Source: Accumulibacter sp.
Lineage (GTDB): Bacteria; Pseudomonadota; Gammaproteobacteria; Burkholderiales; Rhodocyclaceae
NCBI RefSeq assembly: GCF_029255285.1
Contig: NZ_JAPUVI010000086.1
Location: 40,757-104,756, forward strand
Reading direction: 5' to 3'
DNA length: 64,000 nucleotides
Position 1 is the stretch's first letter; each line of letters begins with the position of its first letter. Position numbers and translations under genes: made by a program. Positions 1 to 18,527 of this stretch are shown here, in pieces. The notes below the pieces were generated by a model. The model did no database searches, was not told the origin of the DNA, and saw nothing but the letters and a program-made list of their open reading frames with translations.

Positions 1-585
1 GGTGAGCAGCAACTCGTCGAGCGTCGGCAGGGTCGTGGGGACTTGGGGGCAGCGGACGATTTCGCCGTCTATGACCGGAAAGAAGGGATACTTTCCGCGG
101 CAATCGCTGGCATAGCCGAATCCCAGGCGTTGCGTGAGACGCAAGGCATGGCGGCTCATCCGCCAACCGGCGGCGCCGTGCGCCGTCGCCGGTTGGCCAA
201 AAATCGCCTCGAAACGCCGCCAGGCATGCGTCATTTCGACCTCGATCCAGGGATTGTCGGCTGACAGCACCTTGTCTTCCCAGAGGACGCGATTCCAGGC
301 GTGTATGGCCACCTCGAAACCCGCGTCGCGCGCTTGACGCATGATGTCCGCGGCGCGCGTGCCGATATCGGGAGCCGGCAGGATCAATCCATCAAGGCGG
401 GCGGAGAAGTCGTAGTAACGGCAGGGCGAGGACTGGCGCGCTTCGCGCCCGCTGCAGTCCGGGCCAAGCGAAAAGAAGAAGGTCGCCGACGCTCCGAGCC
501 GCGGCAACAGTTCCAGGAGGAAGGGAACGCCGACGAGCGTCCCGCGGCAGGTGTCTACGTCGATCTTGAGGGCGATGCGCTTCAT
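1..585 (-). CDS. ArnD-like polysaccharide deacetylase family protein (C-terminus cut by window edge)
   Basis: The reverse strand reads without a stop from an ATG at 585 to the window edge, 195 codons. The product begins MKRIALKIDVDTCRG and continues with a PFLLELLPRLG segment and ATFFFSLGPDC, which is the start of the ArnD branch of NodB-type deacetylases; the DVD carries the metal-site Asp. Further on is an EVAIHAWNR segment with the His expected in the second motif. ArnD deformylates undecaprenyl-phosphate-linked 4-formamido-arabinose during lipid A modification, but close relatives act on other lipid-linked sugars, so the substrate is inferred. The C-terminus lies outside the window. The Mth938-like gene ends 51 bp upstream on the same strand, so co-transcription is possible. 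Confidence 0.8.
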   Translation of the reverse strand, partial: MKRIALKIDVDTCRGTLVGVPFLLELLPRLGASATFFFSLGPDCSGREARQSSPCRYYDFSARLDGLILPAPDIGTRAADIMRQARDAGFEVAIHAWNRVLWEDKVLSADNPWIEVEMTHAWRRFEAIFGQPATAHGAAGWRMSRHALRLTQRLGFGYASDCRGKYPFFPVIDGEIVRCPQVPTTLPTLDELLLT

Positions 586-636
586 CGTGCCGAGCCCGAC
601 GGGTGACGCCTGGTCGCCGACGACGGGTGGTGGCCG

Positions 637-1008
637 TCAGACAAGGAGCAGGCCGACAGCGACCTTGCGGCCTTCACCCACCAGGACGTTGTAAGTCCGG
701 CAGGCCGCCGGCAAATCCATCACCTCCAGCCCTTTCTGGCGCCGCACCAAGGGTTGCAGCAACTCGGGGCTCGGGAAGCGAAGGCGGTCGCCGGTCCCCA
801 GCAGGACGATTTCGGCATCGAGCGAGGCGAGCCATTCGATGTCAGCGATGGACAGCGTTTCGAAGGTCGCTTGCGTCCAGTCCGGGATCAGACGATCGGG
901 CAGTACCGCCAGGTTGCCGGTGTGGCGGACGCCGTTTACGCTGACATAGCCGGCACCGTAGGCGGAAAAGGTGTTCAGGCCAACGCTGCTGTCGAGCTGC
1001 AGTTTCAT
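637..1008 (-). CDS. Mth938-like domain (DUF498/DUF598) protein
   Basis: This 123-residue protein matches the small single-domain Mth938-like family in length and pattern. A central EIVLLGTGDRLRFP segment and a C-terminal EGRKVAVGLLLV strand are typical; mitochondrial NDUFAF3 is a distant member. The biochemical role of the bacterial proteins is not established. The ATG at 1008 is the first residue of the conserved domain. A TATAAT hexamer on the minus strand (1046-1041) sits at a sensible distance for a promoter. The gene reads away from alaC and towards the deacetylase gene. Confidence 0.8.
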   Translation of the reverse strand: MKLQLDSSVGLNTFSAYGAGYVSVNGVRHTGNLAVLPDRLIPDWTQATFETLSIADIEWLASLDAEIVLLGTGDRLRFPSPELLQPLVRRQKGLEVMDLPAACRTYNVLVGEGRKVAVGLLLV

Positions 1009-1040
1009 GAAAATTGCGGTGCACAGGACGTTAAAGTAGG

Positions 1041-1046
1041 ATTATA
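1041..1046 (-). promoter_or_regulatory. Candidate -10 box (TATAAT) for the Mth938-like gene
   Basis: A perfect TATAAT lies on the minus strand about 33 nt upstream of the ATG at 1008, inside the 146-bp gap to alaC. No convincing -35 hexamer is seen at 17 bp; CTGAAC at 1069-1064 is the nearest weak match. Confidence 0.35.
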
Positions 1047-1154
1047 GCTTTTTTGCTGCAGCCGTTCAGAGTCGGATATCTCGTCGTCGCCGCCCCGCGC
1101 CGCGTGTTTGTCGTTTGCCCGACCACTGTCACGATCCTTTTCCGAGCACCCGCC

Positions 1155-2339
1155 ATGAGAGAGTTTTCGCGCATCAAACGCTTGCCACCCTACGTCTTCA
1201 GCATTACCAGCGAGCTGAAGATGGCTGCCCGTCGGCGCGGCGAGGACATCATCGACATGAGCATGGGGAATCCCGACGGACCGACCCCGCAGCACATCAC
1301 CGACAAGCTGGTCGAGGCGGCACTGCGCGAGAATACGCATGGTTATTCGATCTCGAAGGGGATTCCGCGGCTGCGCAAGGCGATCTGCGACTGGTATCAA
1401 CGGCGCTACGACGTGAGCTTCGACCCGGAAAGCGAAGCCGTGGTGACGATCGGTTCGAAGGAAGGACTCGCGCACCTGATGCTGGCCACGCTCGATCGCG
1501 GCGACACGGTGCTGGTGCCGAATCCTTCTTACCCGATTCACATCTACGGGGCGATCATCGCGGGGGCCGACATCCGCTCGGTCCGCATGACGCCCGACGT
1601 CGATTTTTTCGAGGAAGTCGAGCGCGCAATCCGCGAGTCGATTCCCAAGCCGAAGATGATGATCCTCGGTTTCCCGAGCAACCCGACGGCGCGCTGCGTC
1701 GACCTCGGTTTCTTCGAGCGTATCGTTGCCCTGGCCCGCCAGCACGACATTCTGGTGGTGCACGACCTGGCTTACGCCGACATCTGCTTCGACGGCTACC
1801 AGGCGCCGTCGATCATGCAGGTCGCCGGGGCTCGCGAGGTTGCCGTCGAATTCTTCACCATGTCCAAGAGCTACAACATGGCCGGTTGGCGTGTTGGCTA
1901 CATGGTCGGCAACCGGGAGTTGTGTCACGCGCTGGTGCGCATCAAGAGTTACCACGACTACGGAACCTTCACGCCGATCCAGGTCGCTTCGGTGATTGCG
2001 CTCGACGGTCCTCAGCAATGCGTCGAGGAAGTGCGCCAACTGTACCAGGGAAGGCGCAACGTACTCGCCAAGGGGCTGCATGAGGCCGGCTGGATGGTCG
2101 AAGTACCGAAGGCGTCGATGTACATCTGGGCGAAAATCCCCGCCGCCTACCTGCAGATGGGGTCTCTCGAATTTGCCAAGAAACTGTTGACCGATGCCAA
2201 GGTGGCCGTCTCGCCCGGTGTCGGTTTCGGCGAGTATGGCGACGATCACGTCCGCTTCGCGCTGATCGAGAACGAAGAGCGTACGCGGCAAGCGGTACGG
2301 GGAATCAAGGACATGTTCAGAAAGGACGGGCTGCTCTAG
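1155..2339 (+). CDS. alaC: Alanine transaminase AlaC-like, class I/II PLP aminotransferase
   Basis: The 394-residue product starts [15 protein letters not shown], the family-typical AlaC N-terminus. I therefore reject the 34-codon upstream extension to 1053. It has the fold-type I aminotransferase landmarks: a PNPSYPIH segment, GFPSNPTA, an HDLAYADI stretch with the PLP-pairing Asp, and the PLP lysine in [13 protein letters not shown]. AlaC makes alanine from pyruvate and glutamate; related LL-diaminopimelate aminotransferases are the main alternative. In many beta- and gammaproteobacteria this gene lies upstream of hom and thrC. Here a second aminotransferase gene starts 4 bp after its stop, so the two are probably co-transcribed. 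Confidence 0.88.
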
Positions 2340-2343
2340 GCTC

Positions 2344-3582
2344 ATGGCGATGAAACCGATACTCAAGTCCACCAAACTCGACAACGTCTGCTACGACATT
2401 CGCGGCGCCGTGCTGCAGAAGGCCAAGCAAATGGAAGACGAGGGTCACCACATCGTCAAGCTCAATATCGGCAACCTGGCCGCTTTCGGTTTCGAGGCGC
2501 CGGAAGAAATCCAGCTCGACATGATCCGCAACCTGCCGAACGCCGCGGGCTACTCGGATTCGAAAGGAATCTTCTCGGCCCGCAAGGCGGTGATGCATTA
2601 CACGCAGCAGAAGCACATCAAGGGCGTCACGCTGGAGGACATCTATATCGGTAACGGTGTCTCCGAGCTGATCGTGATGGCCATGAACGCGCTGCTCAAT
2701 GCCGGCGATGAAGTGCTGGTACCGGCACCCGACTATCCGTTGTGGACCGCGGCGGTGAGCCTGTCGGGCGGCACGCCTTGCCACTACCTGTGCGACGAGG
2801 CAAACGAATGGCTGCCCGATCTCGACGATCTGCGCGCCAAGATCACGCCGCGCACACGCGCCCTGGTGGTGATCAATCCCAACAACCCGACCGGCGCCTT
2901 GTATCCCCCGAGCGTGCTGCGCGAGATGGTCGCCATCGCGCGCCAGCATGGACTGATCCTCTACGCCGACGAGGTCTACGACAAGGTGCTCTACGACGGT
3001 GCAACGCATACGGCAATCGCTTCGCTGTCCGACGACGTACTGACGGTGACCTTCAACGGTTTGTCCAAGAACTACCGCTCGTGCGGCTATCGCGCGGGCT
3101 GGATGGTCGTTTCCGGAGACCTGCGCGACGCCCGCGACTATGTCGAGGGGCTGGACATCCTGGCGTCGATGCGCCTGTGCTCCAACGTTCCGGCACAGCA
3201 CGCGATTCAGACGGCGCTCGGCGGCTACCAGAGCATCGACGACCTCATCGCGCCGGGCGGCCGCATGTGCCGCCAGCGTGACCTGGCGCACGCCTTGATC
3301 ACGGCGATTCCCGGCGTCACCTGCGTCAAGCCCAAGGCCGCCCTGTACATGTTTCCGCGCCTCGACCGGCGACTCTACCCGATCGACAACGACCAGGATT
3401 TCATCGCCGAGCTGCTGCAGGAGGAGCGCGTGCTGCTGGTTCAGGGCAGCGGCTTCAACTGGCCAGAGCCGGACCACTTTCGCCTCGTCTTCCTGCCCTA
3501 CGAGGACGACCTGCGTGACGCCATCGGCCGCATCGCGCGTTTCCTCGCCACCTATCGCAAACGCTTCGGGGCGCCAAGCTAG
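2344..3582 (+). CDS. alaA: Glutamate-pyruvate aminotransferase AlaA-like
   Basis: The 412-residue product resembles AlaA (YfbQ). It begins with a KSTKLDNVCYDIRG segment, then KLNIGN, VPAPDYPLWTA, INPNNPTGALYP, and the PLP lysine in GLSKNYRSCGYRAGW. It interconverts glutamate plus pyruvate with 2-oxoglutarate plus alanine. Two in-frame ATGs (2344 and 2350) are possible starts. Only 4 bp separate it from alaC, so two different alanine transaminases appear to be made from one transcript. hom follows after 72 bp. The C-terminal half is complete and no frameshift is visible. Confidence 0.88.
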   Translation: MAMKPILKSTKLDNVCYDIRGAVLQKAKQMEDEGHHIVKLNIGNLAAFGFEAPEEIQLDMIRNLPNAAGYSDSKGIFSARKAVMHYTQQKHIKGVTLEDIYIGNGVSELIVMAMNALLNAGDEVLVPAPDYPLWTAAVSLSGGTPCHYLCDEANEWLPDLDDLRAKITPRTRALVVINPNNPTGALYPPSVLREMVAIARQHGLILYADEVYDKVLYDGATHTAIASLSDDVLTVTFNGLSKNYRSCGYRAGWMVVSGDLRDARDYVEGLDILASMRLCSNVPAQHAIQTALGGYQSIDDLIAPGGRMCRQRDLAHALITAIPGVTCVKPKAALYMFPRLDRRLYPIDNDQDFIAELLQEERVLLVQGSGFNWPEPDHFRLVFLPYEDDLRDAIGRIARFLATYRKRFGAPS

Positions 3583-3654
3583 AGGCCGGCCGCAGGCCTG
3601 ACTGACGGCCGCCAGCCCCCATCGCCCTCCACAACCTTAAGCGCACACTGCCCT

Positions 3655-4965
3655 ATGAAACCCATCAACGTTGGACTGCTCGGCCTCGGCACCGTCGGCG
3701 GAGGAACCTACTCCGTACTCAGGCGCAACGCCCAGGAAATCACTCGTCGAGCCGGCCGGCCGATCGCCGTGAGCGTCGTCGCCGACCGCAAGCTGGCGCG
3801 CATTCGCGAGCTGACTGGCGGCAGTTGCCGGGCCACCGACGATCCCTTTGCCGTCGTCGCCGACCCGGAAGTCGACATCGTCGTCGAGTTGATCGGTGGC
3901 GACGACGTGGCCAAGACGCTGGTCATGCAGGCGATCGAGCATGGCAAACATGTCGTCACCGCCAACAAGGCCCTGCTCGCCAAGCACGGCAACGAGATTT
4001 TCGCCGCCGCGCAGAAGCGGGGCGTCATGGTCGCCTTCGAGGCCGCCGTCGCCGGCGGCATCCCGATCATCAAGGCCTTACGCGAGGGGCTGACGGCCAA
4101 CCGCATCGAGTGGATCGCCGGCATCATCAACGGCACGACGAACTTCATCCTGTCCGAGATGCGTGACAAGGGGCTGTCCTTTGCCACGGTGTTGGCGGAG
4201 GCGCAGCGTCTCGGCTACGCGGAGGCCGATCCGACCTTCGACGTCGAGGGGGTGGACGCCGCGCACAAGCTGTCGATCATGTCGGCGATCGCCTTCGGCA
4301 ACTCGATGAGCTTCGACCAGGCTTTCATCGAAGGCATCAGCCGGCTCGATGCGGCCGACATCCGCTACGCCGAGCAACTCGGCTACCGCATCAAGCTGCT
4401 TGGCATCACCAAGCGCACCGCCGAAGGCGTCGAACTGCGCGTCCATCCGACGCTGATTCCCGCCAGGCGGCTGATCGCCAACGTCGAGGGCGCGATGAAC
4501 GCCGTCCTGGTCAAGGGCGACGCGGTCGGTGCCACGCTCTACTACGGCAAGGGAGCCGGCGCCGAACCCACGGCGTCGGCCGTGATCGCCGACCTGGTCG
4601 ATGTGACGCGGATGCATACCGCCGACCCGGAGCATCGCGTGCCGCATCTTGCCTTCCAGCCCGACGCGATGGTCGATCTCGCGATCCTGCCAATGGCCGA
4701 TGTCGTCACGAGCTATTACCTGCGCCTACGCGTCGAGGATCGCCCCGGCGTTCTTGCCGACGTGACGCGCATCCTTGCCGACGACGGCATTTCGATCGTC
4801 GCGATGATCCAGCGCGAGCCGGGGGAAGGCGAAGAACAGACGGACATCATCATGCTGACCCACAAGACGCGCGAAAGAAACGTCGATACGGCAATTGCCG
4901 GCATCGAAGCCTTGTCGGCGGTCAAGGGACCGATAATTCGCCTGCGCCTGGAAGATCTGCAGTAA
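3655..4965 (+). CDS. hom: Homoserine dehydrogenase
   Basis: This 436-residue protein reduces aspartate semialdehyde to homoserine for threonine and methionine synthesis. The N-terminal NAD(P) fold starts at residue 5 with GLLGLGTVGGGT. The dehydrogenase core includes the TANKALLAKHG and GIINGTTNFIL motifs and the ADPTFDVEGVDAAHK signature. A C-terminal ACT domain (RVEDRPGVLADVTRIL) implies feedback control by an amino acid, probably threonine. It follows alaC-alaA on the same strand. Threonine synthase, the usual next gene in related genomes, is absent: a converging sensor-kinase gene lies there instead. Confidence 0.95.
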   Translation: MKPINVGLLGLGTVGGGTYSVLRRNAQEITRRAGRPIAVSVVADRKLARIRELTGGSCRATDDPFAVVADPEVDIVVELIGGDDVAKTLVMQAIEHGKHVVTANKALLAKHGNEIFAAAQKRGVMVAFEAAVAGGIPIIKALREGLTANRIEWIAGIINGTTNFILSEMRDKGLSFATVLAEAQRLGYAEADPTFDVEGVDAAHKLSIMSAIAFGNSMSFDQAFIEGISRLDAADIRYAEQLGYRIKLLGITKRTAEGVELRVHPTLIPARRLIANVEGAMNAVLVKGDAVGATLYYGKGAGAEPTASAVIADLVDVTRMHTADPEHRVPHLAFQPDAMVDLAILPMADVVTSYYLRLRVEDRPGVLADVTRILADDGISIVAMIQREPGEGEEQTDIIMLTHKTRERNVDTAIAGIEALSAVKGPIIRLRLEDLQ

Positions 4966-5021: not shown

Positions 5022-5166
5022 CTTGCCGGACCAAGCACCGCGGTCGGGACCATGGGAAGCGCCATTCTCGACCGCTCCGGTTTGGGCCGTCTTGGCCAGA
5101 GGGTTGCCGCGCCACCCGGGACGCCGGCCGAGGCCAGGCTAAGGGACCGAATTCACCGACGCCGGC

Positions 5167-7233
5167 TCAGGTTTCGAGGCCGTCGCGCAGGATCTTTTCG
5201 ATCTTCTCGAAAGCGAAATTCTCGGCATGTTGCCGCAGAAGCTGCCCAAGCGCCTCGTCCTGCGCCTCCACTCGCGCGATCAACCTGTGGATGCGCTCGA
5301 CATTCAAGGCGACGACCGCTTCGCCCAGTTCGCGCCGCAATTCTGATGGCAGCGCCTCGACGTCCGCCCGTTCTGCAACCCGCGACGACCGGTTCACCGT
5401 CGCCTCACGCTGGTAACGCACACCCAAGAGCCGCGCCAAGCACGCGAAGACGTCGGCGCGACGAAATGGCTTGTGCAGAATGTCATCCATGCCCGCCGCC
5501 AACATTTCTCCACGCTGCTCGGCGAACACCGAAGCGGTGAGCGCGACTATCTTGACGTCCTTTCCACCGTCCAGAGCACGGATGCGCCGGGTGGCCTCCA
5601 GTCCGTCCATGCCGGGCATGCGTCGGTCCATCCAGATGAAATGGGGGCGCCACGACTGGAACAACTCGACGCCGCGCAGGCCGTTCTCCGCAGTCTTCAC
5701 CGGGAACCCTGCTTCTTCCAGCAGCCTGGCAAGCAGCAAGGCGTTCTCAGGCTGGTCCTCGACAATCAGGATCCGGAACTCCGGCTGGCCTGGCGCCAAG
5801 GCGAGAACCTCACCGTCTTCTCCAGGCAAGCCGCTCACTTCGGGTGCCGACACGGGCTCGATCGGCAGGTCGATAGAGAAGCAACTGCCCTGGCCAATCT
5901 CGCTGACGACACGGATTCGGCCGCCCATCAACTCGACGAACTGACGTGTAATCGCCAATCCGAGGCCGGTTCCACTGTGCACCGACGCCTGGCCCGCCTG
6001 TACGAACGGTTCGAAGATCATCGCCTGTTCCGCCAACGCGATACCCGGGCCGCTATCCACCACATCGATGCGCAGGCGGCGACCGTCTGCGCCGCCAGTG
6101 GCATCCAGCCGCAGCGTGACCCCACCCTGCTCGGTAAACTTGATGGCGTTACCGAGCAGGTTGACCAGCACCTGCCGCAACCGGACTTCGTCGCCCCGAA
6201 TGTGCGGTGCCACCGGCCCGCGACGTTCCAGGCGCAGATCGAGACTCTTTTCGCGTGCGCGCTGCCCCATCATGGCAACGACATCGTTCACCGCCGAGTC
6301 GAAGTCAAATGGCGCCACCTCCAAAACGATGCGGCCAGCCTCGATCTTGGCCATGTCGAGGATGTCGTTGATCAGGCGCAGCAGGTGTTCACCACTGCGG
6401 TTGATGATGTCCAGATGTTCCCGGTCGCGACCGGTGATGACGGCTTCCCGGCACATCAGCACCGAGAAGCCGAGGATGGAGTTGAGCGGCGTGCGCAGTT
6501 CGTGGCTCATGTTGGCCAGGAAGGTGCTCTTGGCCCGGTTGGCCGTCTCGGCCAACTCTTTGGCATGCTCCAGTTCGGCCGTGCGAACCGCCACCAGTTC
6601 CTCGAGGTGATTGCGATAGCTTTGCAACTCCAGTTCCGCACGCTTGCGTTCGGCGAGTTCGAGCGTCAGCTTCCGGTTGAGGTCGGACAACTCGGCGGTA
6701 CGCGACTTGATGGTCTGTTCCTGGCGTTCGTAGAGCAGCGCATTGCGCAACACCAGAGCCAGAATGGTCGACAAAGGCCCAATCAAGGTCGTCGTGGCCG
6801 CCAGTTCAGCCTCCTCGGGCAAGCCGAGCAGGAGCAGCCCTCCGACGTGGTGAGTACCGACCATCAAGGGCATGGCCATCGTCAGACCCATTCCTTCATC
6901 GAGCAGGATGCGCGCCGCTTCCGAAGAGTCGCCGGGACGCCACACTTCGACGGCCGGCATGCCCCGGACCATGCCGCATAGGCGGCGAAATCCCGCCGCA
7001 TCACCGACCGGTTTACGGCGCTTCGGATCGACGCTGACGATCCGGTAGTCGCTCGCTGCCGAATCGTTGTCGAACTGGATCAACAGCACGCTGCGAGCGG
7101 CGGTCATCGCACGTAGTTCCTTGGTCAAATAGCTGCCCGTATTGCCAGGGTTGTCCGCACGGTCGAGAACGTTGCTCAGAACGTCGATGGTCATGAACGA
7201 CAGGGCGGGATCGTTGAAAGCGTCCCTGGTCAT
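5167..7233 (-). CDS. Hybrid sensor histidine kinase (GAF-coiled coil-HisKA-HATPase-REC), last gene of corrinoid operon
   Basis: From the ATG at 7233 the protein has 688 residues; the ATG overlaps the DUF1638 stop as ATGA, like the other junctions in this operon. Order: GAF-like sensory region (about 10-165), coiled coil (170-240), HisKA with phospho-acceptor His in SHELRTP (about residue 244), HATPase ([14 protein letters not shown]), and a receiver with phospho-acceptor Asp in [11 protein letters not shown] (about 536). A helical tail of roughly 85 residues follows, with no obvious Hpt histidine. No membrane segments are seen, so it should be cytoplasmic. It probably passes phosphate from His to its own receiver; no separate output regulator is encoded nearby. 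Its place in a B12-methyltransferase operon suggests it senses the pathway state or substrate (inference). GTG at 7248 is an alternative start. Confidence 0.9.
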
Positions 7234-7841
7234 CCCGCTATCGCCCACTCATCGAGCCGCCCCATCGCCTCGCTGATCGCGCTGTGCAGGCAATCGAGCG
7301 GTGTGGCACGTGACTCCCATGGCAGACCGCAATAGTCCGCAATCGCCCGCAGCTTCTCTTGCGGCACGGACAGCAAGCCAGTATCGAGATAGACGATCAG
7401 GCGATGCAAGTCGCCCATCAGCCCTCTGGCATTGGCCCGATCGAGACCCAACTCGTTCGCGAAGAAGCGCTCGCCTCGCTGCGCCCATTCCGGCAGCAGG
7501 AAGTAGGCACCGTCGCGCGCGTCCCGCCGGTAGCGTTCGCGGCCGAGCAGCAGTTCGGCACAGTTGGCTCCCTTGGTCAGCACGACGCCGGGTTGCGCCG
7601 CAAGCTGCCGCATCCCGACGTAGCAGTCGCCATAAACCAGGACCACCCCTCGCCCGGTCCTCCGTTCCTCCTCGACGATCGCTTCCAGTTGCTCACCGAG
7701 TCTAGCCGGACAAACGTGCAACATGGAGCGCACGACGCGAATCCGTAGCGCGGGCCAGTGGATCTGCCAGAGCGCCTCGACCTCGGCCGCGAACACCGAG
7801 CATACGACCAGCGTCGGTGGACAAGGCCCGCATCCGGTCAC
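7230..7841 (-). CDS. DUF1638 protein of corrinoid methyltransferase operon
   Basis: The 203-residue product carries the DUF1638 pattern: an N-terminal [15 protein letters not shown] strand, [30 protein letters not shown] and a [11 protein letters not shown] segment. Conserved Cys residues occur in each motif. The biochemical function is unknown; family members occur beside corrinoid proteins and MtaA/UroD-type methyltransferases, and that is the context here. It starts with GTG at 7841, overlapping the UroD-like stop (GTGA), and its own stop overlaps the kinase ATG. Translation is therefore likely coupled in both directions. Confidence 0.85.
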
Positions 7842-8863
7842 CGGCGATCCCCAGCAAATTCCTCCACCGATTTCCGGAAGGCGTGAATGTTGGCCGGAGG
7901 CGTATCGATGTACATGTCACCTTTGCAACTGGCCAGAATGAAGCGCGGGTCGTCGCGCCGATTCTCCAGTGTCTTGCGGCACACCGCTTCGACATCCGCT
8001 GCCGCGGCTCGCCGCATCCACGGTGACGCGGGCCCGCTGAGCAGAATGGAGTCTGCGCCAAGAAGCCGGCGCGCCCGTTTCAGGTTGTCGCCCTGCGCGA
8101 GCACGAAACCGGCGACGGAAGGCAAACCCGACAAAACATCCAGGTTGGCCACGAGGGGAAATTCCAAATGGTGCAGGACGACCGGCCCATGAACTCGCGC
8201 CAAGGTATCAACCAGCACGGGCCGCGAAAACTCCTGCAATATCTCGCGGGTGACGAAACCTGGCGAAGCGAAGCCGATTGTCCACACGACAAAGGCAGCG
8301 CCATCGGCGAAGCAGCGGTTGGCCAGGTCCGCGGCGAAGGGAGTCACTCGCTGCATGATCGCCTCAGCCGCTGGACGATCGAACAGCAAGGTTTCCAGCC
8401 AGGCATCCAGACCCATTACCAGCCCGGGAATGTCGATTGGCGCGACGAGAAGCACGGCTACCGGCACTTCGCGCCCGTGTTCGGCGACCACGCGCCGCAA
8501 CGCCTCCCGCAGGTACGACAGACGCGGATGCCGGTCCGGATCGGGAAGCGGCAAACCTTTCCATTCGGAGGCCGCCTCGATGGCTGGGGTCGACACCACG
8601 GGCGGTCCCTTGTCGAAATAGCGGGCCTTGCTGCCGAATGCCTCGCCGATCGCGGCGACGATCACGGGGCCGAACAATATGTCCGGGGCAAAGGTTTCGC
8701 GTACCGCCGTCTGCCCGCGAGCATAAGCCGCCGGGTCATTGTAATGCTCCTCCAGGGAGCAGCCGGTCAAAGCCGCGCTGTACTGGCTCAACGGCATGGT
8801 GAACATTCGCCGGTCGGCCATTTCACCCGCCAACAGGCATTGCAGGCGCTGGAGGCTGTTCAC
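7838..8863 (-). CDS. UroD-like (MtaA/MtbA/CmuA-type) corrinoid methyltransferase
   Basis: This 341-residue protein has the uroporphyrinogen decarboxylase fold used by methylcobalamin:CoM/tetrahydrofolate-type methyltransferases. Visible landmarks are the N-terminal RLQCLLAGE, FGPVIVAAIGEAFG, and DTPPANIHAF near the C-terminus. Canonical MtaA/MtbA bind zinc with His-X-Cys plus a distal Cys. Here the first motif reads LHHLEF (H231, H232, L233), so the Cys is missing, while a distal Cys is kept in ASCKGD (C313). It probably moves a methyl group to or from the adjacent corrinoid protein, with an unidentified partner. GTG start at 8863 overlaps the upstream stop. It is not the haem-pathway hemE by context. 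Confidence 0.85.
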   Translation of the reverse strand: MNSLQRLQCLLAGEMADRRMFTMPLSQYSAALTGCSLEEHYNDPAAYARGQTAVRETFAPDILFGPVIVAAIGEAFGSKARYFDKGPPVVSTPAIEAASEWKGLPLPDPDRHPRLSYLREALRRVVAEHGREVPVAVLLVAPIDIPGLVMGLDAWLETLLFDRPAAEAIMQRVTPFAADLANRCFADGAAFVVWTIGFASPGFVTREILQEFSRPVLVDTLARVHGPVVLHHLEFPLVANLDVLSGLPSVAGFVLAQGDNLKRARRLLGADSILLSGPASPWMRRAAAADVEAVCRKTLENRRDDPRFILASCKGDMYIDTPPANIHAFRKSVEEFAGDRR

Positions 8864-9567
8864 CGGGCGTCCTCGAAGCGTTCGCCGCGCGCCCAGAGCT
8901 CCGCGAAAAGATGGGGCGCTTCGAGCATGTCCGGCGCGGTGCCATCTCCCCCCACCTCATCGCACAGCCCGTCGGCAACGAGAAACACGGCGCCGCCCAC
9001 CGCCAGTTGAATGCGACCGGACAGCCCTCGGGCGTCGAGCTCACGCCGGACTTCCTTGATGTTCAGTGCCGTCGTCACGGTCATCGCCGACACGCCGATG
9101 ACCCGCGCGCCAATCTCGATCGCCTTGTCTACGAACTCGGCCGCCGGCACATCGTTGCCCAGATCGCAAACGACCCACCCGCTGGAGCGCAGCATCGTCG
9201 CCACCATGCGGCGACCCAGGGCATGGAAGTCTTCCTCCGCGTTGCCGAGAACCACCGGCCCTTTGGCCGTTCTTTGTTCGCTGTTCTGCGCGAACGATCC
9301 GGCGGACTTGGTCAACATGTCTTCGGCCACCTTGGCCGCGACATAGGCTTGAGCCAGCGAAAAGCGTTCCGAGTTGATACCGCGACCGATTCTTTTCAGG
9401 GCCGGCTCGAGAAGATCCTTGTACGCCGCGGCATAACCGTGTCGCGCAGCCCAGTAGTCGAGCAATTGTCCAGCCCGTTCGCGATCGGCGCGGCTGATTG
9501 CGGCCACCAAGGCCCGCCGAATGTTCAGATCGGAAAGCTCGCCGTCCGGGTGCTCGCCTGGTGTCAT
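8860..9567 (-). CDS. Methyltransferase cognate corrinoid (B12-binding) protein, MtbC/MtaC-like
   Basis: From ATG 9567 the product has 235 residues. A helical cap (about 10-95) precedes a Rossmann-like B12 domain. The base-off motif D-x-H-x-x-G is present as DFHALG (D113, H115, G118), followed by VSAMTV and AVGGAVF for the nucleotide tail. It should carry methylcobalamin between two methyltransferase active sites. It is the first gene of a four-gene operon; its stop overlaps the GTG of the UroD-like gene. A GTG at 9579 would add four residues, but ATG 9567 has a GGTGG-type ribosome site at better spacing. Confidence 0.9.
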   Translation of the reverse strand: MTPGEHPDGELSDLNIRRALVAAISRADRERAGQLLDYWAARHGYAAAYKDLLEPALKRIGRGINSERFSLAQAYVAAKVAEDMLTKSAGSFAQNSEQRTAKGPVVLGNAEEDFHALGRRMVATMLRSSGWVVCDLGNDVPAAEFVDKAIEIGARVIGVSAMTVTTALNIKEVRRELDARGLSGRIQLAVGGAVFLVADGLCDEVGGDGTAPDMLEAPHLFAELWARGERFEDAR

Positions 9568-10189
9568 CTCGACGTCCACCTATACTATCCGGACACGCCG
9601 CGGATCGCGATCGGTGCTAGGCCGACGTTGCCTGCGAGCTGCCGAGCGCGCGTCCTGGCCGACTGGAGAGCGCGATATCGGCCGCTGGGGTGCCTGGGAG
9701 GGATCATTTCACCGCGCTGCGCGGCGTCGATGCGTGTACGCTCGCATTGAGCCATTGCTACATTGCTACATTGCTAATGTTGGTGCTCCGGTCGTCGGAG
9801 CGTTCGTGTGGCATCGTGGGCCCCACTATTCTTGATGCTCGGGATGGATGCCAAGCCCATCCGTCAGGCTGTTTCCCTGGCAAATGGTGGCGATCCGGTC
9901 ACCCGCTGACTGGGCAGGATTCCAAGCAGCGTATAGTTCGTATTACATTCTCGACTGAGCAATTGATACCCATGCGAAACCATCGGTGCTGCCTTCGCTT
10001 TTCGCTTCACTCATTGAGAGTTGATAGCTTGCCTGTCCGATCGTCACTCCGGAAGCGCCGGTGTTTGCGCGCCCACGACAGTCGACCCGCCGCGTGCCGA
10101 GTCGGACATGCTCCGGAACTTCGGTCTAGCCATGGCCTGACCGCCGGTACAAGCCGGCGCCGACTCCCTTGCTTCCGCAGGAGGCCCCA
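9568..10189. other. Intergenic region between corrinoid operon and caspase gene
   Basis: About 620 bp between two diverging transcription units, with no convincing gene on either strand. It is visibly more AT-rich than its surroundings between about 9750 and 10030. It holds a triple octamer repeat at 9753-9776. A minus-strand TAGTAT around 9584-9589 could be the -10 of the corrinoid operon. The right end carries the caspase ribosome site. Confidence 0.6.
9753..9776. repeat. Three perfect tandem copies of CATTGCTA
   Basis: The octamer CATTGCTA occurs three times head to tail without mismatch, in the non-coding gap upstream of both diverging units. It could be a repeated operator or a slippage-prone tract; nothing in the sequence decides this. 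Confidence 0.85.
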
Positions 10190-13100
10190 ATGACGCGCTT
10201 ACTGGCCCTCGGGCTGATGCTTCTGGTCTCGCTTGCCTCTGCGCAGCCGAGTGGTCTGCCGAGCGGACAGCCGTCCGCCAAGCCGGTGTTCACCATCGAT
10301 CCGGGCGTGCACGCGGGCAACGCGTATCGCCTCGCGACAACGCCCGACGAACGTCATCTGGTCAGCGTCGGGCTCGACAAGACCATACGCGTCTGGGACG
10401 TCGACAGCGGACGGCAAGTGCGGCGACTCATTCTGCCGGTGGCCGGCCGCCATGACGGGCTGCTTTACGCGCTGTCCCTGTCGCCCGACGGCCGTCTGGC
10501 CGCCGTTGGCGGCAGTCTTTACAGCTTCGGCAAGGGACGCTCGGTGGCCATCGTCTCGCTGCAGGATGGCCGCATCGTAGGCGCTTTTCCCGGTTTCGAG
10601 TCACCGATCACGGCGCTTGCCTGGTCGTCCGACGGCCGCCTGCTGGCCATCGGTTTCGTCGACGACAGTGGCGGCACCGAAAGCGGCCTGCGCATCCTCG
10701 AGGTCGACGGCGGCCGCCGTGTGTTCGAGGACCGATCGCTGACGGGCAACATCTCGGCCCTTGCCTTTCGCGCCGACGGTACGCTCTTCGCGACTTCGCA
10801 CAACTATCCCGCCGCCAGTCGGGTAGTCCTCTACAAGCCGGCCGGCACCGGTTTCAACCGCGTCGCCGAGCGCGTCCTGACGGACCGCGGCGCTTTTCGG
10901 GCCTACTGGACAGCCGACGAGCGGGCGGTCCTCGTTTTCGGCCACGGCCTCTACGATGGCGAATCGCTCGCCGCGCTGCCGTATCGATTGAACCGCAGCG
11001 CCATGCCGACGGGCGTTCGCTCGCTGATCGTTCGCGAATCGCCCGACGGTCGCCATATCTTCGGCGCCGCCCACGCGCGCGACAGCGCCAGCGGGCTCAT
11101 CCGGCGCTGGAACGGGACGGGCTACCAGCGCCAGGGCTTCGACGACCTGCGTGTCCCCGACCGTCGCATCGCCGATGTCGTTGCTTTGCGCAGCGGCGTT
11201 CTCGCCTACCTTTCCGAAGACGGCGCGCTTGCCGCGGTCGGCCCGGACATGCAAATTCTCTGGCGCAACGCGCGCGCGGTGGCCGAACTCGATGGTCATC
11301 CCGAAGCGCTGCTGGTTTCCTCCGATGAGCAGCGGGTCGCGCTGCCGGTACTGGCCGAGCAGAAAGGCCGCCTGCTGGCCTTTACGCTCGACAACCCCGG
11401 GTTTGCCGCCGTCGACGCGGCCCGCGAAGCATGGCAGGCACCGCTGACCAGTCGCTCGGGTATGAATGTGCTGGCCTGGCAGGGGACGAGCGAAGGCACC
11501 GTCAATGGCCAGCCGCTTCCGAAAACCAACCGGCGCGAGCGCTCGCTGTCGGTAGCAGTGCATTCGAGCGAAGCGGCCTTGGTCTATGGATCGTCACAAC
11601 GCTTCCTGCGCAAGGTAAGCGATCAGGGCGGCGAACTATGGAAACGTTACCTGCAGGCCGACGTGGTCGCCGTAAATCTGCTCGAAAAGCGCGCTTTGGT
11701 CGTCGCCGCGACCCTCGACGGCTTCATTCATTTGCTGCGTTGGCGCGATGGCGAGCCACTGATGAGCTATTATCTGCAACCCGGCGACCGCAAGTGGCTG
11801 GCCATCTCACGGGCGGGCTATTACGAAGCCGCCATCGGCGCCGAGGACCATGCTGGCTGGATCGTCAGTAGCGACCCGGGGCGAACGGCCGACTTCTTTC
11901 CCCTGTCGCGTTTTCGCGCCACTTATCTGCTCCCGGGAATGGTTCGCCAGGTCCTTTCCGCTGGCGACCAGCGCCAGGGGATCGGCGCCGCCAAGCGCGA
12001 GCGCGGCAACGTGCGGACACTGGAGAGTGCCTCGACCGCCAAGCCCGCTGGTGATGCTCCGGCGCCATCGGCAGCGCGTCAGACGGCGAACGGGAAATCC
12101 GGAACGGGCCGGCCAGCCAGTCCCGACGACGGGCAGGGTCAGGAAATCAGTGCACCCGCTGTCGACCGTCTGCCGCCAGTGGTCGACATCGTCAGGCCGG
12201 GATACGAGGCCAGCGTCAGCAAATCGCCGCTCACGCTGGCTTATCGGCTGCGCACGCCGGCCGGTGCACCGGTGATCCGAGTCCGGCTGCGGGTCAATGG
12301 CCAGGAAGCGCCGCTCGGCGCCGAGGCCTGGGTTGCGCAACCGGCCGGCGAGGCGACGCGCGAGCTGACTGTCGAACTGCCGGCCGAGGATGCCGAGTTG
12401 CAACTGATCGCCGAGAACGCCCACGGCGCCTCTGTACCGGCCGTCGTACGCGTGCGCTATCTGGGGGAAAAGAAAGTCGCGGCCGCCGAGAACGACCTCT
12501 ATGTCCTGGCGGTCGGCGTGTCGGCCTACGACAAGCCTGAGTATCGACTGGACCTCGCGGCCAAGGACGCCGCGGACTTTGCGACGCTGATGCGGCGACA
12601 GGAGGGAACGATGTACCGCAAGGTGGTCGTCCGCACGCTGGTGGACGGCGCGGCGTCGAAACAGGCGGTCGAAGCGGCGCTGGCCTGGCTGAGAGGTGCC
12701 GTCCGGCCGCACGATACGGCGATGGTCTTTCTCGCCGGACATGGCGTCAACGATGGTCGCGGCGAGTATCTCTACCTGCCGCGCGATGCCGACGCGTCGC
12801 GCCTCGACGCCACCGGCGTCAGCTTCTCGCTGATCCGCCGGACCCTGACCAGTCTGCCCGGCCGTACGCTGATGTTCGTGGACACCTGCCACGCCGGCAA
12901 CGTCATCGGCACAGCGCGCCAGCGGCTCGACAACACCGAGGCCATCAACGAACTGGCGAGCGCTGAGAACAACATCGTCGTCTTCGCGTCGTCCGCGGGA
13001 ACGCAGGAATCGATGGAGGATCCGGCGTGGGGCAACGGAGCCTTTACCAAGGCTCTGCTCGAGGGCCTGCGCGGCGCGGCCGATCTGAAGAAACGCGGCC

Positions 13101-13243
13101 GGATCACTTACAAGCAACTCGACGCCTACGTCTCGGACCGCGTCGACGAACTGACGCGCGGACTGCAGACGCCGGTCACGCCGGTACTGCAGGGTCTGCC
13201 GGATTTCATCATCGTACTGCTTGCCCAGTGGCGACAGCCATGA
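10190..13243 (+). CDS. Exported beta-propeller protein with C-terminal caspase (peptidase C14) domain
   Basis: The 1017-residue product starts at ATG 10190, six bases after an AGGAGG ribosome site. A signal peptide (about 1-19, ending SLASA) predicts export. Residues about 35-560 contain WD40-like blades (DKTIRVWDV, LSPDGRLAAVG, AWSSDGRLLAIG). A low-complexity linker rich in Ala, Pro and Ser follows (about 590-660), then an Ig-like segment. The caspase-like domain runs from about 775 to 1010, with catalytic His in LAGHGVND (H851) and Cys in VDTCHAG (C900). It is therefore probably a periplasmic or outer-surface orthocaspase-type protease, with the propeller giving substrate or partner contact. 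The biological role is unknown. No zymogen partner is seen nearby; the next gene is metabolic. Confidence 0.9.
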   Translation: MTRLLALGLMLLVSLASAQPSGLPSGQPSAKPVFTIDPGVHAGNAYRLATTPDERHLVSVGLDKTIRVWDVDSGRQVRRLILPVAGRHDGLLYALSLSPDGRLAAVGGSLYSFGKGRSVAIVSLQDGRIVGAFPGFESPITALAWSSDGRLLAIGFVDDSGGTESGLRILEVDGGRRVFEDRSLTGNISALAFRADGTLFATSHNYPAASRVVLYKPAGTGFNRVAERVLTDRGAFRAYWTADERAVLVFGHGLYDGESLAALPYRLNRSAMPTGVRSLIVRESPDGRHIFGAAHARDSASGLIRRWNGTGYQRQGFDDLRVPDRRIADVVALRSGVLAYLSEDGALAAVGPDMQILWRNARAVAELDGHPEALLVSSDEQRVALPVLAEQKGRLLAFTLDNPGFAAVDAAREAWQAPLTSRSGMNVLAWQGTSEGTVNGQPLPKTNRRERSLSVAVHSSEAALVYGSSQRFLRKVSDQGGELWKRYLQADVVAVNLLEKRALVVAATLDGFIHLLRWRDGEPLMSYYLQPGDRKWLAISRAGYYEAAIGAEDHAGWIVSSDPGRTADFFPLSRFRATYLLPGMVRQVLSAGDQRQGIGAAKRERGNVRTLESASTAKPAGDAPAPSAARQTANGKSGTGRPASPDDGQGQEISAPAVDRLPPVVDIVRPGYEASVSKSPLTLAYRLRTPAGAPVIRVRLRVNGQEAPLGAEAWVAQPAGEATRELTVELPAEDAELQLIAENAHGASVPAVVRVRYLGEKKVAAAENDLYVLAVGVSAYDKPEYRLDLAAKDAADFATLMRRQEGTMYRKVVVRTLVDGAASKQAVEAALAWLRGAVRPHDTAMVFLAGHGVNDGRGEYLYLPRDADASRLDATGVSFSLIRRTLTSLPGRTLMFVDTCHAGNVIGTARQRLDNTEAINELASAENNIVVFASSAGTQESMEDPAWGNGAFTKALLEGLRGAADLKKRGRITYKQLDAYVSDRVDELTRGLQTPVTPVLQGLPDFIIVLLAQWRQP

Positions 13244-13265
13244 CCTTTTGTGAAAGTCAAGCCTA

Positions 13266-14429
13266 ATGCGTCCCCCACCTCTTGCCGGTCTTCGCGTCCT
13301 CGATCTGACACGCCTTTTGCCAGGGCCGCTGGCCAGCATGCACCTTGCCGACCTTGGTGCTGACGTCGTCAAGATCGAAGACACCGGCGCTGGCGACTAC
13401 GCGCGCGGCGCCGGCGCGATCCATGGCCAGATCAGCTATTTCCAGCTCGTCAACCGCAACAAGCGCAGCCTTTGCCTCGACCTCAAGCAGGCGGCGGGAG
13501 TCGCCGCCTTCATGCGCCTCGCGGCGACAGCCGACGTCATTCTCGAGGGCTTCCGCCCTGGCGTTGTAGACAAGCTGGGTATCGGCTACGCGGCCGTCGC
13601 GGCGATCAACCCGCGCGTTACTTACTGTGCGATTACCGGCTACGGGCAGGACGGACCTTACCGCGACCGCGCCGGCCACGACCTCAACTATCTCGCCTAT
13701 TGCGGGCTGCTCGACCAGATCGGCCTGCCCGGCAGCGCACCGGCGGTGCCGAATTTCCAGATCGGCGATCTCCTCGGCGGCTCGCTGACCGCGTTGCTCG
13801 GGGTGCTGGCCGGGGTCGTCGACGCGCGCCAGAGCGGCCGCGGCCGTTACGTCGATGTGTCGATGACCGACGCCGTTTTCGCGCACACTCTCTTTCCGCT
13901 GCTCGCCGTTCTTGGCCTGGGGCAGGCGCTACCGCGTGGCGAAGACGTCCTCTCGGGCGGCATGCCTAGCTACGGCGTCTATGCGACGCGTGACGGCCGA
14001 TACATGGCGGTTAGTGCGATGGAGCCGAAGTTCTGGCAAGGCCTTTGCGACGCCATCGAACGCCCGGACCTCAAACCGTTCGCCTTTGCTTGCGGCGCCG
14101 ACGGCCAGCGTATTCGGCGCGAACTTGAGCTGGCCTTCGCCGAACGTAGCTTTGCCGAGTGGACGACCGTCTTCGAGCGCGTCGACTGCTGCGTGACCCC
14201 AGTACTGCGCCTCGAGGAGAGTATCGAGAACGCGCAACTGCGGGCGCGGGCCATGATCGTCGAGGTCGACGGCGTCAAGCAATTTGCCCCGCCGTTCAAG
14301 ATCAGTGACCTACCCTTCGAGGCTCGGCTGCCACCGCCGGCCGCGGGCGAGCACAGCGAGGACGTTCTACGGTCCGCCGGTTTCAGTGATCAAGAGATCG
14401 GCGGCCTGCGCGCGCAGAAAGTGATCTGA
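13266..14429 (+). CDS. CaiB/BaiF family protein, alpha-methylacyl-CoA racemase-like
   Basis: This 387-residue protein belongs to the family III CoA-transferase fold (PLAGLRVLDLTRLLPGPLA, then DVVKIED). Two features favour racemase over transferase. AGHDLNY supplies His138 and NFQIGDLLGG supplies Asp168, a 30-residue spacing equal to that of the catalytic pair of mycobacterial MCR. The enzyme would epimerise 2-methylacyl-CoA thioesters in branched-chain or isoprenoid degradation. It starts 22 bp after the caspase stop on the same strand, so it may share a transcript without functional kinship. Confidence 0.85.
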   Translation: MRPPPLAGLRVLDLTRLLPGPLASMHLADLGADVVKIEDTGAGDYARGAGAIHGQISYFQLVNRNKRSLCLDLKQAAGVAAFMRLAATADVILEGFRPGVVDKLGIGYAAVAAINPRVTYCAITGYGQDGPYRDRAGHDLNYLAYCGLLDQIGLPGSAPAVPNFQIGDLLGGSLTALLGVLAGVVDARQSGRGRYVDVSMTDAVFAHTLFPLLAVLGLGQALPRGEDVLSGGMPSYGVYATRDGRYMAVSAMEPKFWQGLCDAIERPDLKPFAFACGADGQRIRRELELAFAERSFAEWTTVFERVDCCVTPVLRLEESIENAQLRARAMIVEVDGVKQFAPPFKISDLPFEARLPPPAAGEHSEDVLRSAGFSDQEIGGLRAQKVI

Positions 14430-14495
14430 TTCCTTCCCACTGCGTCATGGTCACGCGAGCCGGGCGGCCACCGGGCCAGCGGCGCGACCCCGACA

Positions 14496-15371
14496 TCAGG
14501 CGGGCGGCGAGTCCGGTTCGAGCGCCCGAATGGCTAGCACGCCGACCGAGATGTTGTCGCTGCCGCCGCGCTCGCGCGCCAGTTGGATGAGTTGCCGGCA
14601 GGCTTCCTCCGGCTCCGCAGTATCGACGATGCGGGCGATCTCGCGCGCATCGACAGTGTCCCACAGCCCGTCGGAACAGAGAACGAAACAGTCGCCAACT
14701 TGCGGCGGATCGCCATGCTGAGCGATGACCCACAGCTTCTCCTGTGTTCCCACGGAACGCAGGAGAACGTTGCGGGCCGGGTGATGGGCCGCCTGCTCGG
14801 GGCGGATCAGGCGGTTCTTGACCATCTCTGCCACGAAGCTGTCGTCCTCGGTGAGCTGCCTGCAGCGACCGGCACGGCAGCGGTACAAGCGACTGTCGCC
14901 GACATGGGCAAAGAGTACGCCACTGCCCACCAGAACGAGGGCCGTGGCCGTCGTGCCCATACCCTCGAGCCTCGAGTCCGCCGCGGCGGCGCGAAACACG
15001 GCACCGTTCGCTTCGCGCACCGCCAATGCCAGCGCCTGCGCGGCGGCGTCGCTCGTTGTCGCGTAATAGTAGCGACAGATCGTCTCGACCGCTATGGCGC
15101 TCGCCACTTCGCCTCCGTTGTGCCCACCCATGCCGTCCGCGACCACCGCCAGCACACCGAGCCGCCGACGAACTTCGGCATCGCCCGGCGAGACGAAGGC
15201 GATCGAATCCTGATTGCTCTCGCGCACGCAGCCGACATCGCTCGCCATGAACGCGTCGACCACGTAGTCTGGCGGGGTAGCGCGTGGCGCGGCCACGCCA
15301 CTCTTCCGACCGAACTGACCCGGCCAGAAACGCGACACCGCTCCCGCCACTCGCGAACTCCACTTGCCCAT
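14496..15371 (-). CDS. PP2C-family Ser/Thr protein phosphatase (Stp1-like)
   Basis: The 291-residue product has the bacterial PP2C motifs in order: RESNQD (D55), VVADGMGGHNGGEVAS (D79), LVGSGVLFAHVGDSR, LTEDDS, LCSDGLWD and SDNIS. These provide the metal-binding Asp residues for a Mn/Mg-dependent phosphatase, predicted cytoplasmic. A roughly 30-residue basic N-terminal extension precedes the domain. The partner kinase is not adjacent; the only Ser/Thr kinase in the window is the protein at 50219, so pairing would be speculative. It converges with the racemase-like gene and diverges from the ATP-grasp gene. Confidence 0.9.
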   Translation of the reverse strand: MGKWSSRVAGAVSRFWPGQFGRKSGVAAPRATPPDYVVDAFMASDVGCVRESNQDSIAFVSPGDAEVRRRLGVLAVVADGMGGHNGGEVASAIAVETICRYYYATTSDAAAQALALAVREANGAVFRAAAADSRLEGMGTTATALVLVGSGVLFAHVGDSRLYRCRAGRCRQLTEDDSFVAEMVKNRLIRPEQAAHHPARNVLLRSVGTQEKLWVIAQHGDPPQVGDCFVLCSDGLWDTVDAREIARIVDTAEPEEACRQLIQLARERGGSDNISVGVLAIRALEPDSPPA

Positions 15372-15738
15372 CTCGATTTCCCTTGCCCTGGAGCAGCGCC
15401 CCGCATCACGCGACCACCGGAAGCGACGCCTTCCGGCTTACGGTTAGCATTGTGCCAGTCCATCCGCCTTCTTCGTATACGTGGCGCAGTCATTTTCCAT
15501 CGTCGAAACGCCGACGCGCGCCGCCTGACCGCGTGACCTTAGGGCGCCGTGCGGTGGCTGAGCGCCGCACCGTGGCGGAGAATCGCGACGCACCGGCAAG
15601 GTGCATCGCCCGCGCCGCGCGCACCACGCGCTCGCACCGCACGCCTTCGCTTTCCCCTGATCCAGCGGGCGGCAGACATCCAGGAACATGGCACGATTAG
15701 TGCTTCATTCGCAACAACACACACTGGCGGTGAGCATC
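15372..15738. other. Divergent intergenic region, no gene seen
   Basis: About 370 bp between the PP2C gene and the ATP-grasp gene. Open frames here lack family-like sequence and ribosome sites. It must hold the promoters for both diverging units, but I cannot pick out hexamers with confidence. Confidence 0.5.
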
Positions 15739-17154: not shown

Positions 17155-17172
17155 GCTGGACGGAGAACCGAC

Positions 17173-18476: not shown

Positions 18477-18527
18477 CCTCGACAAGACAAGCATTCCCGG
18501 CTCACCTCGTTACGACATCACCGAGAC

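Follow-up and report, generated by a model that had tools for sequence, protein, structure and literature searches.

A candidate corrinoid-based sensory cassette coupled to a hybrid histidine kinase in Accumulibacter sp.

Several described systems share parts with the locus studied here. In Phaeobacter, genetic data connect DUF1638 with the reactivation of B12 and its mutants are rescued by methionine, and in Alphaproteobacteria the family is found together with a RamA-like gene; the part of the source used here reports this mutant phenotype and proposes no specific function for DUF1638 (PMC5764234). B12 domains are also used in light sensing, where they can be fused to GGDEF and GAF domains, and the sections of the source on which we rely give the cap signature of CarH-type sensors as GxxW followed by EH (PMC11796333). 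MEDS and PocR are presented, in the portion of the study cited, as sensory domains for simple hydrocarbon derivatives (PMC5847659). In the open-access literature, we found no description of a corrinoid protein, a URO-D protein, DUF1638 and a signalling protein in combination.

The four-gene locus

The stretch of DNA that we analysed (64,000 nucleotides, hereafter the window) contains four minus-strand ORFs encoding, in this order, a corrinoid protein, a URO-D-like barrel, a DUF1638 protein and a GAF-HisKA-HATPase-REC kinase. The following features were delineated:

8860..9567, minus strand: putative corrinoid-binding protein (helical cap and B12-binding domain), ATG start
9214..9231, minus strand: D-x-H-x-x-G motif (DFHALG), lower axial ligand of a base-off corrinoid, from the translation
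7838..8863, minus strand: URO-D-superfamily (MtaA/CmuA-like) barrel protein without the MtaA zinc triad, from Pfam, NCBIfam and motif comparison
7230..7841, minus strand: DUF1638 protein, 203 aa, with near-invariant cysteines C14, C73 and C94, from Pfam and conservation
5167..7233, minus strand: hybrid histidine kinase, 688 aa, with GAF, HisKA, HATPase_c and REC, from Pfam (GAF by model and fold search)
6679..7233, minus strand: kinase N-terminal GAF domain and long helix (modelled region), from model and fold search
6334..6534, minus strand: HisKA domain, residues 234-300 (Pfam), H-box SHELRTP (by eye)
5857..6195, minus strand: HATPase_c domain, residues 347-459 (Pfam)
5443..5772, minus strand: receiver (REC) domain, residues 488-597 (Pfam)
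5075..9986, no strand: block common to the same-genus genome G394, 92.7% DNA identity, from DNA comparison

As stated in a preliminary description of this DNA, 4-nt start/stop overlaps on one strand were found at all three junctions (8860-8863, 7838-7841 and 7230-7233). The kinase overlap uses the ATG at 7233, a GTG at 7248 being also possible, and the corrinoid gene has two possible starts (GTG 9579 or ATG 9567), its 97% relative in G394 being the shorter form (235-aa ORF). Overlaps of 4 nt are by themselves ordinary in operons; judging from the genomes compared, it is the conservation of the four genes elsewhere, and not their overlap, that goes beyond chance. The flanks of the block shared with G394 differ between the two genomes (3.8 and 3.2 kb compared). 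A link to the nearby homoserine dehydrogenase (window 3655-4965, named by eye) was dropped because this gene is convergent and the block lies in other surroundings in G394. Scans for promoters and terminators (1 promoter-like site vs 0.8 expected, 3 terminator-like sites vs 3.9 expected) and a search for repeats were uninformative.

The first protein is a candidate corrinoid binder by its B12-binding domain (66.3 bits for a Pfam cut-off of 32.1) and its D-x-H-x-x-G motif, the helical cap B12-binding_2 scoring slightly below the Pfam cut-off (21.2 vs 23). The DFHALG noticed earlier corresponds to this base-off motif, which was invariant in the 94 aligned corrinoid proteins (20 URO-D-less rows and 2 duplicates being excluded from the alignment).

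The second protein belongs to the URO-D family (PF01208, 125.3 bits vs a Pfam cut-off of 23.9), and the solved relative nearest to the URO-D profile was MtaA (4ay7), reached by the profile only, a phmmer search of the PDB with the window protein giving no match. Its top NCBIfam model, methylcobalamin:CoM methyltransferase, was far under the cut-off (49 vs 244 bits), as was the score for TIGR01463 (37 vs 235.4 bits). The MtaA triad H-x-C..C, whose residues we take to be zinc ligands, was kept in none of the three URO-D subclasses in the motif comparison: the window protein has LHHLEF and SCKG at these positions and its relatives LHHLD and NSG. The first half of the earlier label "UroD-like methyltransferase" agrees with the URO-D family match, whereas a methyltransferase function is putative only, since the zinc triad is absent. 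The window URO-D shares no more than 20-23% identity with the other classes. It was located on a long branch of the tree in a clade with a support of 100/100, all four members of which have the four-gene order. Within the genus, it was matched in only 5 of 28 genomes, a number that includes the window's own.

The third protein was assigned to DUF1638 (95.8 bits vs a Pfam cut-off of 27) and gave a confident AlphaFold2 model (mean pLDDT 95.8). Foldseek returned no match to this model at E <= 0.001, the best being the PrpR N-terminal domain (2.5e-3, TM about 0.4, rmsd about 10 A). A sequence search of the PDB with the single protein found nothing, and one with the DUF1638 profile found weak partial matches (best saposin C, E 0.02). 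Since fold and PDB sequence matches were absent or weak, we drew no function from the fold.

The fourth protein has the composition of a hybrid histidine kinase, with HisKA including its H-box (74.7 bits), HATPase_c (102.4) and Response_reg (86) in Pfam. Pfam gave no GAF match in this kinase; its first 185 residues, modelled with AlphaFold2 (mean pLDDT 82), nevertheless had 317 PDB matches at E <= 0.001 in the fold search, including entries titled as GAF domains from E 6.6e-6 (NifA) down. According to the model, the N-terminus is a GAF domain, as the initial GAF-HisKA-REC assignment had it.

Signalling outputs and RamA in related loci

We compared the best 80 of 382 corrinoid relatives, from named genomes of 13 phyla, one archaeal, ranked by the corrinoid protein with kinases disregarded. 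URO-D was retained in 78 of them. A histidine kinase or a GGDEF/EAL protein was adjacent or fused in 70 of these 78 loci (65 from the main count, plus L074, L115, L137, L139 and L110), which are not independent, many being MAG contigs and nine of the 80 Methylomonas by title. The other eight comprised three at a contig edge, four with GAF and/or PAS without visible output and one with none. GAF and/or PAS without an output domain were observed in L106 and L083; L088 has the trio without an adjoining signalling gene, and L054, from the class sample, the trio with no kinase beside it. Separate output ORFs were 10 nt or less from the preceding gene or overlapped it in 53/53 cases, a count that takes the first possible start and therefore overstates overlaps. 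The frequency with which the kinase accompanies the other genes, proposed earlier as a check, is thus high once other signalling outputs are included and, as far as gene order tells, kinase linkage of the corrinoid/URO-D pair is the rule.

DUF1638 was fused to kinases in 8 and to GGDEF in 4 of the 80 loci, and Pfam detected it in all 12 fusions at E <= 1.1e-4, above the cut-off in 8. The class sample contained three further fusions, L065 and L067 above the DUF1638 cut-off and L068 below. DUF1638 is not strictly needed, since it was not recognisable in L110, L129, L137 and L142 and was shortened in L120. Within the DNA compared, none of 21 DUF1638 loci without URO-D had a signalling gene (HK, GGDEF, EAL or REC).

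Genes around the 80 loci and six others were clustered into groups of at least 4 loci, the small ones being partly identified. The recurrent families were the corrinoid protein, URO-D, DUF1638, kinases, RamA and response regulators, all further groups covering 6 loci at most. Neither a substrate methyltransferase nor a transporter or folate gene was prominent among the recurrent neighbours of the 80 loci.

In 34 of the 78 paired relatives, RamA immediately precedes the corrinoid gene, as it does in L109 and in L108 (RamA-corrinoid-DUF1638, no URO-D); it was confirmed by Pfam in L040, L054, L106 and L118. It is a trait of many class I members and does not define the whole cassette. RACo_C_ter (PF14574) had no match across the 4.19 Mb of the window genome (completeness 100), and RamA was found in none of the four genomes of the window subclass (the window's and three relatives). 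Its absence from the window, remarked upon in the preliminary description, therefore extends to the whole genome but is not general among relatives, and the window subclass is, by these searches, a RamA-less version of the cassette.

A proposed sensory cassette and its alternatives

In the window, the four genes follow one another in cassette order on the same strand, each touching or overlapping the next. We consider it rather probable, from sequence comparisons, that they are a member of a widespread corrinoid-based sensory cassette, the state of which would be read by DUF1638/GAF and passed to a phosphorelay or c-di-GMP. By gene content, the corrinoid protein, the URO-D-like barrel and mostly DUF1638 are a conserved input unit, tied to histidine kinases or GGDEF/EAL proteins either through gene order or as direct fusions. 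The suggestion that the corrinoid pair may act as a sensor for the kinase gains support from the outputs adjacent or fused in 70/78 loci and from the DUF1638 fusions in 12/80. The recurrence of this block across many phyla, with signalling outputs that can replace one another, suggests a type of cellular sensor not described so far.

The barrel would bind a small ligand, probably methylated or a thiol/one-carbon compound, and offer it to the corrinoid, whose methylation or redox state would be altered by ligand presence or methyl transfer. DUF1638, perhaps via its three cysteines, would dock on the corrinoid, read this state and convey it to the kinase GAF domain. Phosphate would then pass from the hybrid kinase to an Hpt/response regulator encoded separately, which in relatives is often of the GGDEF-EAL type and belongs to the same operon. 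In many members, a RamA-type activator would bring Co(II) to Co(I); in the RamA-less subclass of the window, the corrinoid probably does not go on cycling and may therefore be a binding or redox switch and not a turnover device. Somewhat less than an even chance is given to the idea that such loci form a novel type of signal input, derived from a corrinoid-based methyl-transfer machine that consists of the barrel, the corrinoid protein, DUF1638 and often ATP-driven RamA and would sense by turnover: a trace methyl-transfer reaction would gauge the supply of methyl donor or low-potential electrons, and the kinase or cyclase would read the cobalt as methylated, Co(I) or Co(II). If the sensory reading is true, bacteria from 12 phyla or more, and perhaps one archaeon, would employ B12 chemistry beyond catalysis and light sensing, in a chemical sensor that feeds a phosphorelay and c-di-GMP. 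DUF1638 would gain a testable role as reader of the corrinoid state, and the fusions provide a natural series for testing it.

The trio could instead be a conventional pathway that transfers methyl groups from some unknown methylated compound, with the kinase merely its regulator. We regard this as unlikely: the proximity to MtaA, the best NCBIfam model (in spite of its low score) and the RamA of many relatives agree with it, but the recurrent neighbours include no prominent substrate methyltransferase, transporter or folate gene, DUF1638 is directly fused to kinase or GGDEF domains, the zinc triad is absent in all three classes and RamA is absent from the window genome.

A CarH-type role of the corrinoid, in sensing light or oxygen, appears very improbable. 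We are not aware of URO-D, DUF1638 or RamA in sensors of the CarH type. The use of B12 domains in light sensing would suit this reading, as would the GxxW half of the signature, present in 25/94 corrinoid proteins (every class II row, plus L142). EH, however, was never at signature spacing (W-x(8-10)-EH in 0/94) and occurred anywhere in the first 90 residues in only 5/94 (L071, L120, L126, L144 and L162), and the window protein has neither part (GRGI for GxxW, LAQAY for EH). We thus rejected the photoreceptor reading, the signature being incomplete. A B12-reactivation module for methionine synthase with the kinase as a chance neighbour, for which the methionine rescue and RamA-like co-occurrence reported in part of the Phaeobacter source would speak (PMC5764234), is the least probable reading and was rejected, RamA being missing genome-wide, the distribution (5/28 genomes) too patchy for core methionine synthesis, and the kinase nearly always present in cassette loci but in none of the 21 URO-D-less DUF1638 loci.

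Comparison with described systems

The cassette resembles the three-part methionine synthase of Phaeobacter in associating DUF1638 with a corrinoid cap/binding protein and, in the genome, with a RamA-like partner; the two genes adjoin there, whereas in the window they share an operon with URO-D between them. It differs in that the Phaeobacter system consists of methionine-synthase parts, a URO-D barrel or signalling gene being unmentioned in the part of the source used (PMC5764234). As in the MtaA/MtbA/CmuA methylcobamide methyltransferases, a URO-D barrel is paired with a DxHxxG corrinoid protein, but the cassette barrels have the zinc H-x-C..C in no class and are coupled to kinases. The position of RamA immediately before the corrinoid gene in many relatives recalls the RamA-dependent catabolic demethylases, from which the cassette is distinguished by its signalling output and the RamA-less genome of the window; a substrate methyltransferase was not seen among the recurrent neighbours of the loci compared. 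With MEDS/PocR it shares a predicted sensing of simple carbon compounds in kinases, in the portion of that study considered (PMC5847659). Unlike the cassette, MEDS and PocR are single domains. We know of no corrinoid machinery accompanying them. Finally, the cassette resembles CarH and the photocobilin B12 photoreceptors, as described in the sections cited, by a B12 domain as sensory input with GGDEF or GAF partners (PMC11796333); it differs from them by a light signature that class II has only in part and the window protein lacks, and by the addition of the barrel and DUF1638.

The four-gene block and its distribution in the genus

The ORFs and their translations bore out the preliminary description of four genes on one strand, each overlapping the next by 4 nt:

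5167-9567, minus strand: four-gene block encoding a corrinoid protein, a URO-D-superfamily protein, a DUF1638 protein and a hybrid kinase

B12-binding, URO-D, DUF1638, HisKA, HATPase_c and Response_reg domains were above Pfam cut-offs in the four proteins, and the H-box and receiver aspartate of the kinase were retained, as read by eye from the translated sequence. The GAF-HisKA-REC make-up proposed for this kinase was also recovered, HisKA and REC by Pfam and the GAF domain by an AlphaFold2 model (mean pLDDT of 82) of the N-terminus, which had no match in Pfam; in a profile search, 4 to 9 of 43 kinase N-termini matched GAF families. The fold search with this model returned 317 PDB matches at E <= 0.001, GAF domains included (NifA GAF, 6.6e-6; CodY, 3.5e-6). 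Adjoining the cassette in divergent orientation, a 1024-aa ORF (10169-13243, plus strand) carries WD40 repeats at 52.6 bits and a caspase-like Peptidase_C14 domain at 50.9 bits, against cut-offs of 27 and 21.4, respectively.

Genome-wide profile searches of the window's own genome (4.19 Mb, 113 contigs, completeness 100) recovered a single DUF1638 and two URO-D genes, that of the cassette and another at 449 bits, which was taken as HemE. The absence of the activator RamA, previously noted for the window, extends to the whole genome, in which the same type of search gave no RACo_C_ter match; this search works, since it found RACo_C_ter in a Methanosarcina control. The window URO-D was matched in five of the 28 genomes of the genus, the window's counted in, with identities of 97% (G394), 55% (G370), 54% (G388) and 26% (G385, a cassette of URO-D class II). 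G394 and the window have in common a block corresponding to window 5075-9986 (92.7% identity), the compared flanks of G394 being unlike those of the window except for a 299-bp piece resembling window 18495-18793. We infer an accessory cassette that has been moved or rearranged. In two other loci of the genus, a second hybrid kinase similar to that of the window flanks the cassette, upstream in L158 and downstream in L159, which suggests a kinase duplication or a kinase pair.

Conserved linkage of the cassette to swappable signalling outputs

The linkage of the cassette to signalling outputs is conserved, fusions are present and the outputs are swappable. Using a ten-member corrinoid alignment as query in one scan of 84,980 species, we analysed the best 80 of 382 corrinoid relatives, ranked independently of kinases. 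The corrinoid/URO-D pair was present in 78 of these 80, the two others being L109 (contig edge) and L108 (no URO-D). A DUF1638 gene above 40 bits comes next in 73 of the 78 paired loci; it is shortened in L120, and in L110, L129, L137 and L142 no DUF1638 was recognisable and the kinase comes directly. Profiles called outputs in 65 paired loci, namely 49 separate kinases, eight DUF1638-kinase fusions, four DUF1638-GGDEF fusions, three separate GGDEF-EAL proteins and one GGDEF protein (L120). With five further outputs (L074, L115, L137, L139 and the HWE kinase of L110), a kinase or GGDEF/EAL output was adjacent or fused in 70 of the 78, the retention of a kinase beside the trio being the test that the preliminary description had proposed. 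The contig edge was reached before any output in L097, L105 and L147, and GAF/PAS proteins were interrupted by the contig end in L085 and L104; L106 (GAF/PAS) and L083 (PAS, as seen in L064, which is identical) were without output, and no signalling gene adjoined the cassette in L088. In all 12 DUF1638 fusions, DUF1638 was found by Pfam at E <= 1.1e-4 (above cut-off in eight) and a kinase or GGDEF domain was above cut-off, the kinase call in L116 resting on HisKA, with the ATPase interrupted by the contig end. A GGDEF or EAL protein was encoded on the same strand within 7 kb downstream in 20 of the 80 loci. The labelled rows span thirteen phyla, one of them archaeal, many of the 80 loci coming from MAGs and nine being Methylomonas by title, so that they do not represent 80 independent events.

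Several loci had particular layouts. The GGDEF-EAL outputs of L081 and L124 bear a C-terminal CZB (chemoreceptor zinc-binding) domain. L115 (Hyphomicrobiales MAG, 9713-17160) contains tandem cassettes of different classes, class I with a kinase and then a class II corrinoid/URO-D/DUF1638 set. The archaeal bin L125 (Methanosarcinaceae MAG, 208-3603) has a class II cassette with a DUF1638-kinase fusion, whose DUF1638 lacks all three conserved cysteines (C14, C73 and C94) in the alignment. L108 (Candidatus Methylobacter oryzae, 8169-11157) lacks URO-D; its genes for RamA, the corrinoid protein and DUF1638 are consecutive, and a nearby kinase lies on the opposite strand.

DUF1638 was present in 29 of 369 genomes of the class, at 30 places, of which we examined 29, all except the window's own. 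URO-D adjoined the corrinoid gene in eight. Among these, DUF1638 was fused to a kinase in three (L065, L067, L068) and a separate kinase came next in L040 and L059; in L064 DUF1638 was fused to a PAS-bearing protein and no output was found, no kinase adjoined the cassette in L054, and L066 reached the contig end. L068 (4259-7741) comprises two consecutive corrinoid/URO-D pairs followed by a single DUF1638-kinase fusion, as if one reader were common to two inputs. The corrinoid gene was present in 20 of the 21 loci without URO-D, and a profile scan of up to 8 kb either side (shorter at contig ends) found HK, GGDEF, EAL, REC or URO-D in none of the 21.

RamA and the URO-D classes

An all-against-all clustering of 1109 neighbouring genes from 86 loci (the 80, L157-L161 and the window), called by longest ORF so that small genes may be missed, yielded as recurrent families corrinoid proteins (78 loci), URO-D (77), kinases (71), DUF1638 (51, main cluster), RamA (37) and response regulators (15 and 14); beyond these, among groups of at least four loci, there were only groups of up to six, identified in part and some of them visibly lineage-bound. 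RamA accompanies some members. In 34 of the 78 paired loci, the corrinoid gene is preceded at no more than 200 nt by a RamA-type gene (RACo_C_ter, Raco_middle and Fer2 domains), and L108 and L109 also have this gene upstream. Among 60 surveyed genomes (the window's, 14 others and those of 45 of the 80 loci), RamA was present in 30: 24/33 for class I, 4/21 for class II and 0/4 for the window class (the window and three relatives), with classes assigned by hand, L142 placed in class II and G370 87% complete. G403, with both classes, and G418, of another type, each have RamA. In the window's order, L163 (5241-8619) carries a set of another type, comprising a corrinoid protein, URO-D and RamA; neither DUF1638 nor a kinase was found at this locus, which is perhaps an ordinary demethylation set.

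At the positions around the zinc site of the methyltransferase MtaA, the URO-D residues vary with class. The aligned MtaA sequence is HICG..GCG here, against a typical VYYCG..FGTGVMP in class I (65 rows), HLASG..DNHGEIP in class II (25 rows) and LHHL[ED]..SCKG/NSG in the window class (4 rows); three rows match none of these patterns. The MtaA His position is Tyr or Phe in all 65 class I rows, and two residues further Cys occurs in 56, Asn in six and Val, Ala and Gly in one each. The motif H-x-C..C is retained in none of the three aligned classes. In a maximum-likelihood tree of 89 URO-D rows, the window clade (100/100) stood apart from the 62 rows of class I and the 23 of class II, its exact placement being unsure given the program's warning of long branches.

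A candidate route from corrinoid to output

The barrel would bind a ligand, the corrinoid would carry a state that DUF1638 may read, and the GAF domain would relay it. DUF1638 was placed at the reader step because it comes first in the fusions, with the signalling part after; the four loci without recognisable DUF1638 indicate that this step can be bypassed. Barring sequencing errors, the single ORFs that join corrinoid and URO-D in L090 and L115 suggest that this first pair, too, works as one unit.

In the DUF1638 alignment (80 of 111 sequences found), Glu20 is present in all 80 rows, C14 in 79, C94 in 78 and C73 in 77. The structure model was confident and its PDB fold matches only weak. The passages of Price et al. 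(PMC5764234) that concern DUF1638 report that methionine synthesis requires its gene together with a RamA-like one and put forward no specific function, and a report on Ruegeria on N-osmolytes mentions it as more abundant together with RamA (PMC12478193).

No description of the cassette as an input module was found among the open-access papers searched. The parts are already known and the kinase is of the ordinary hybrid type; what we rate as new is the kind of signal input.
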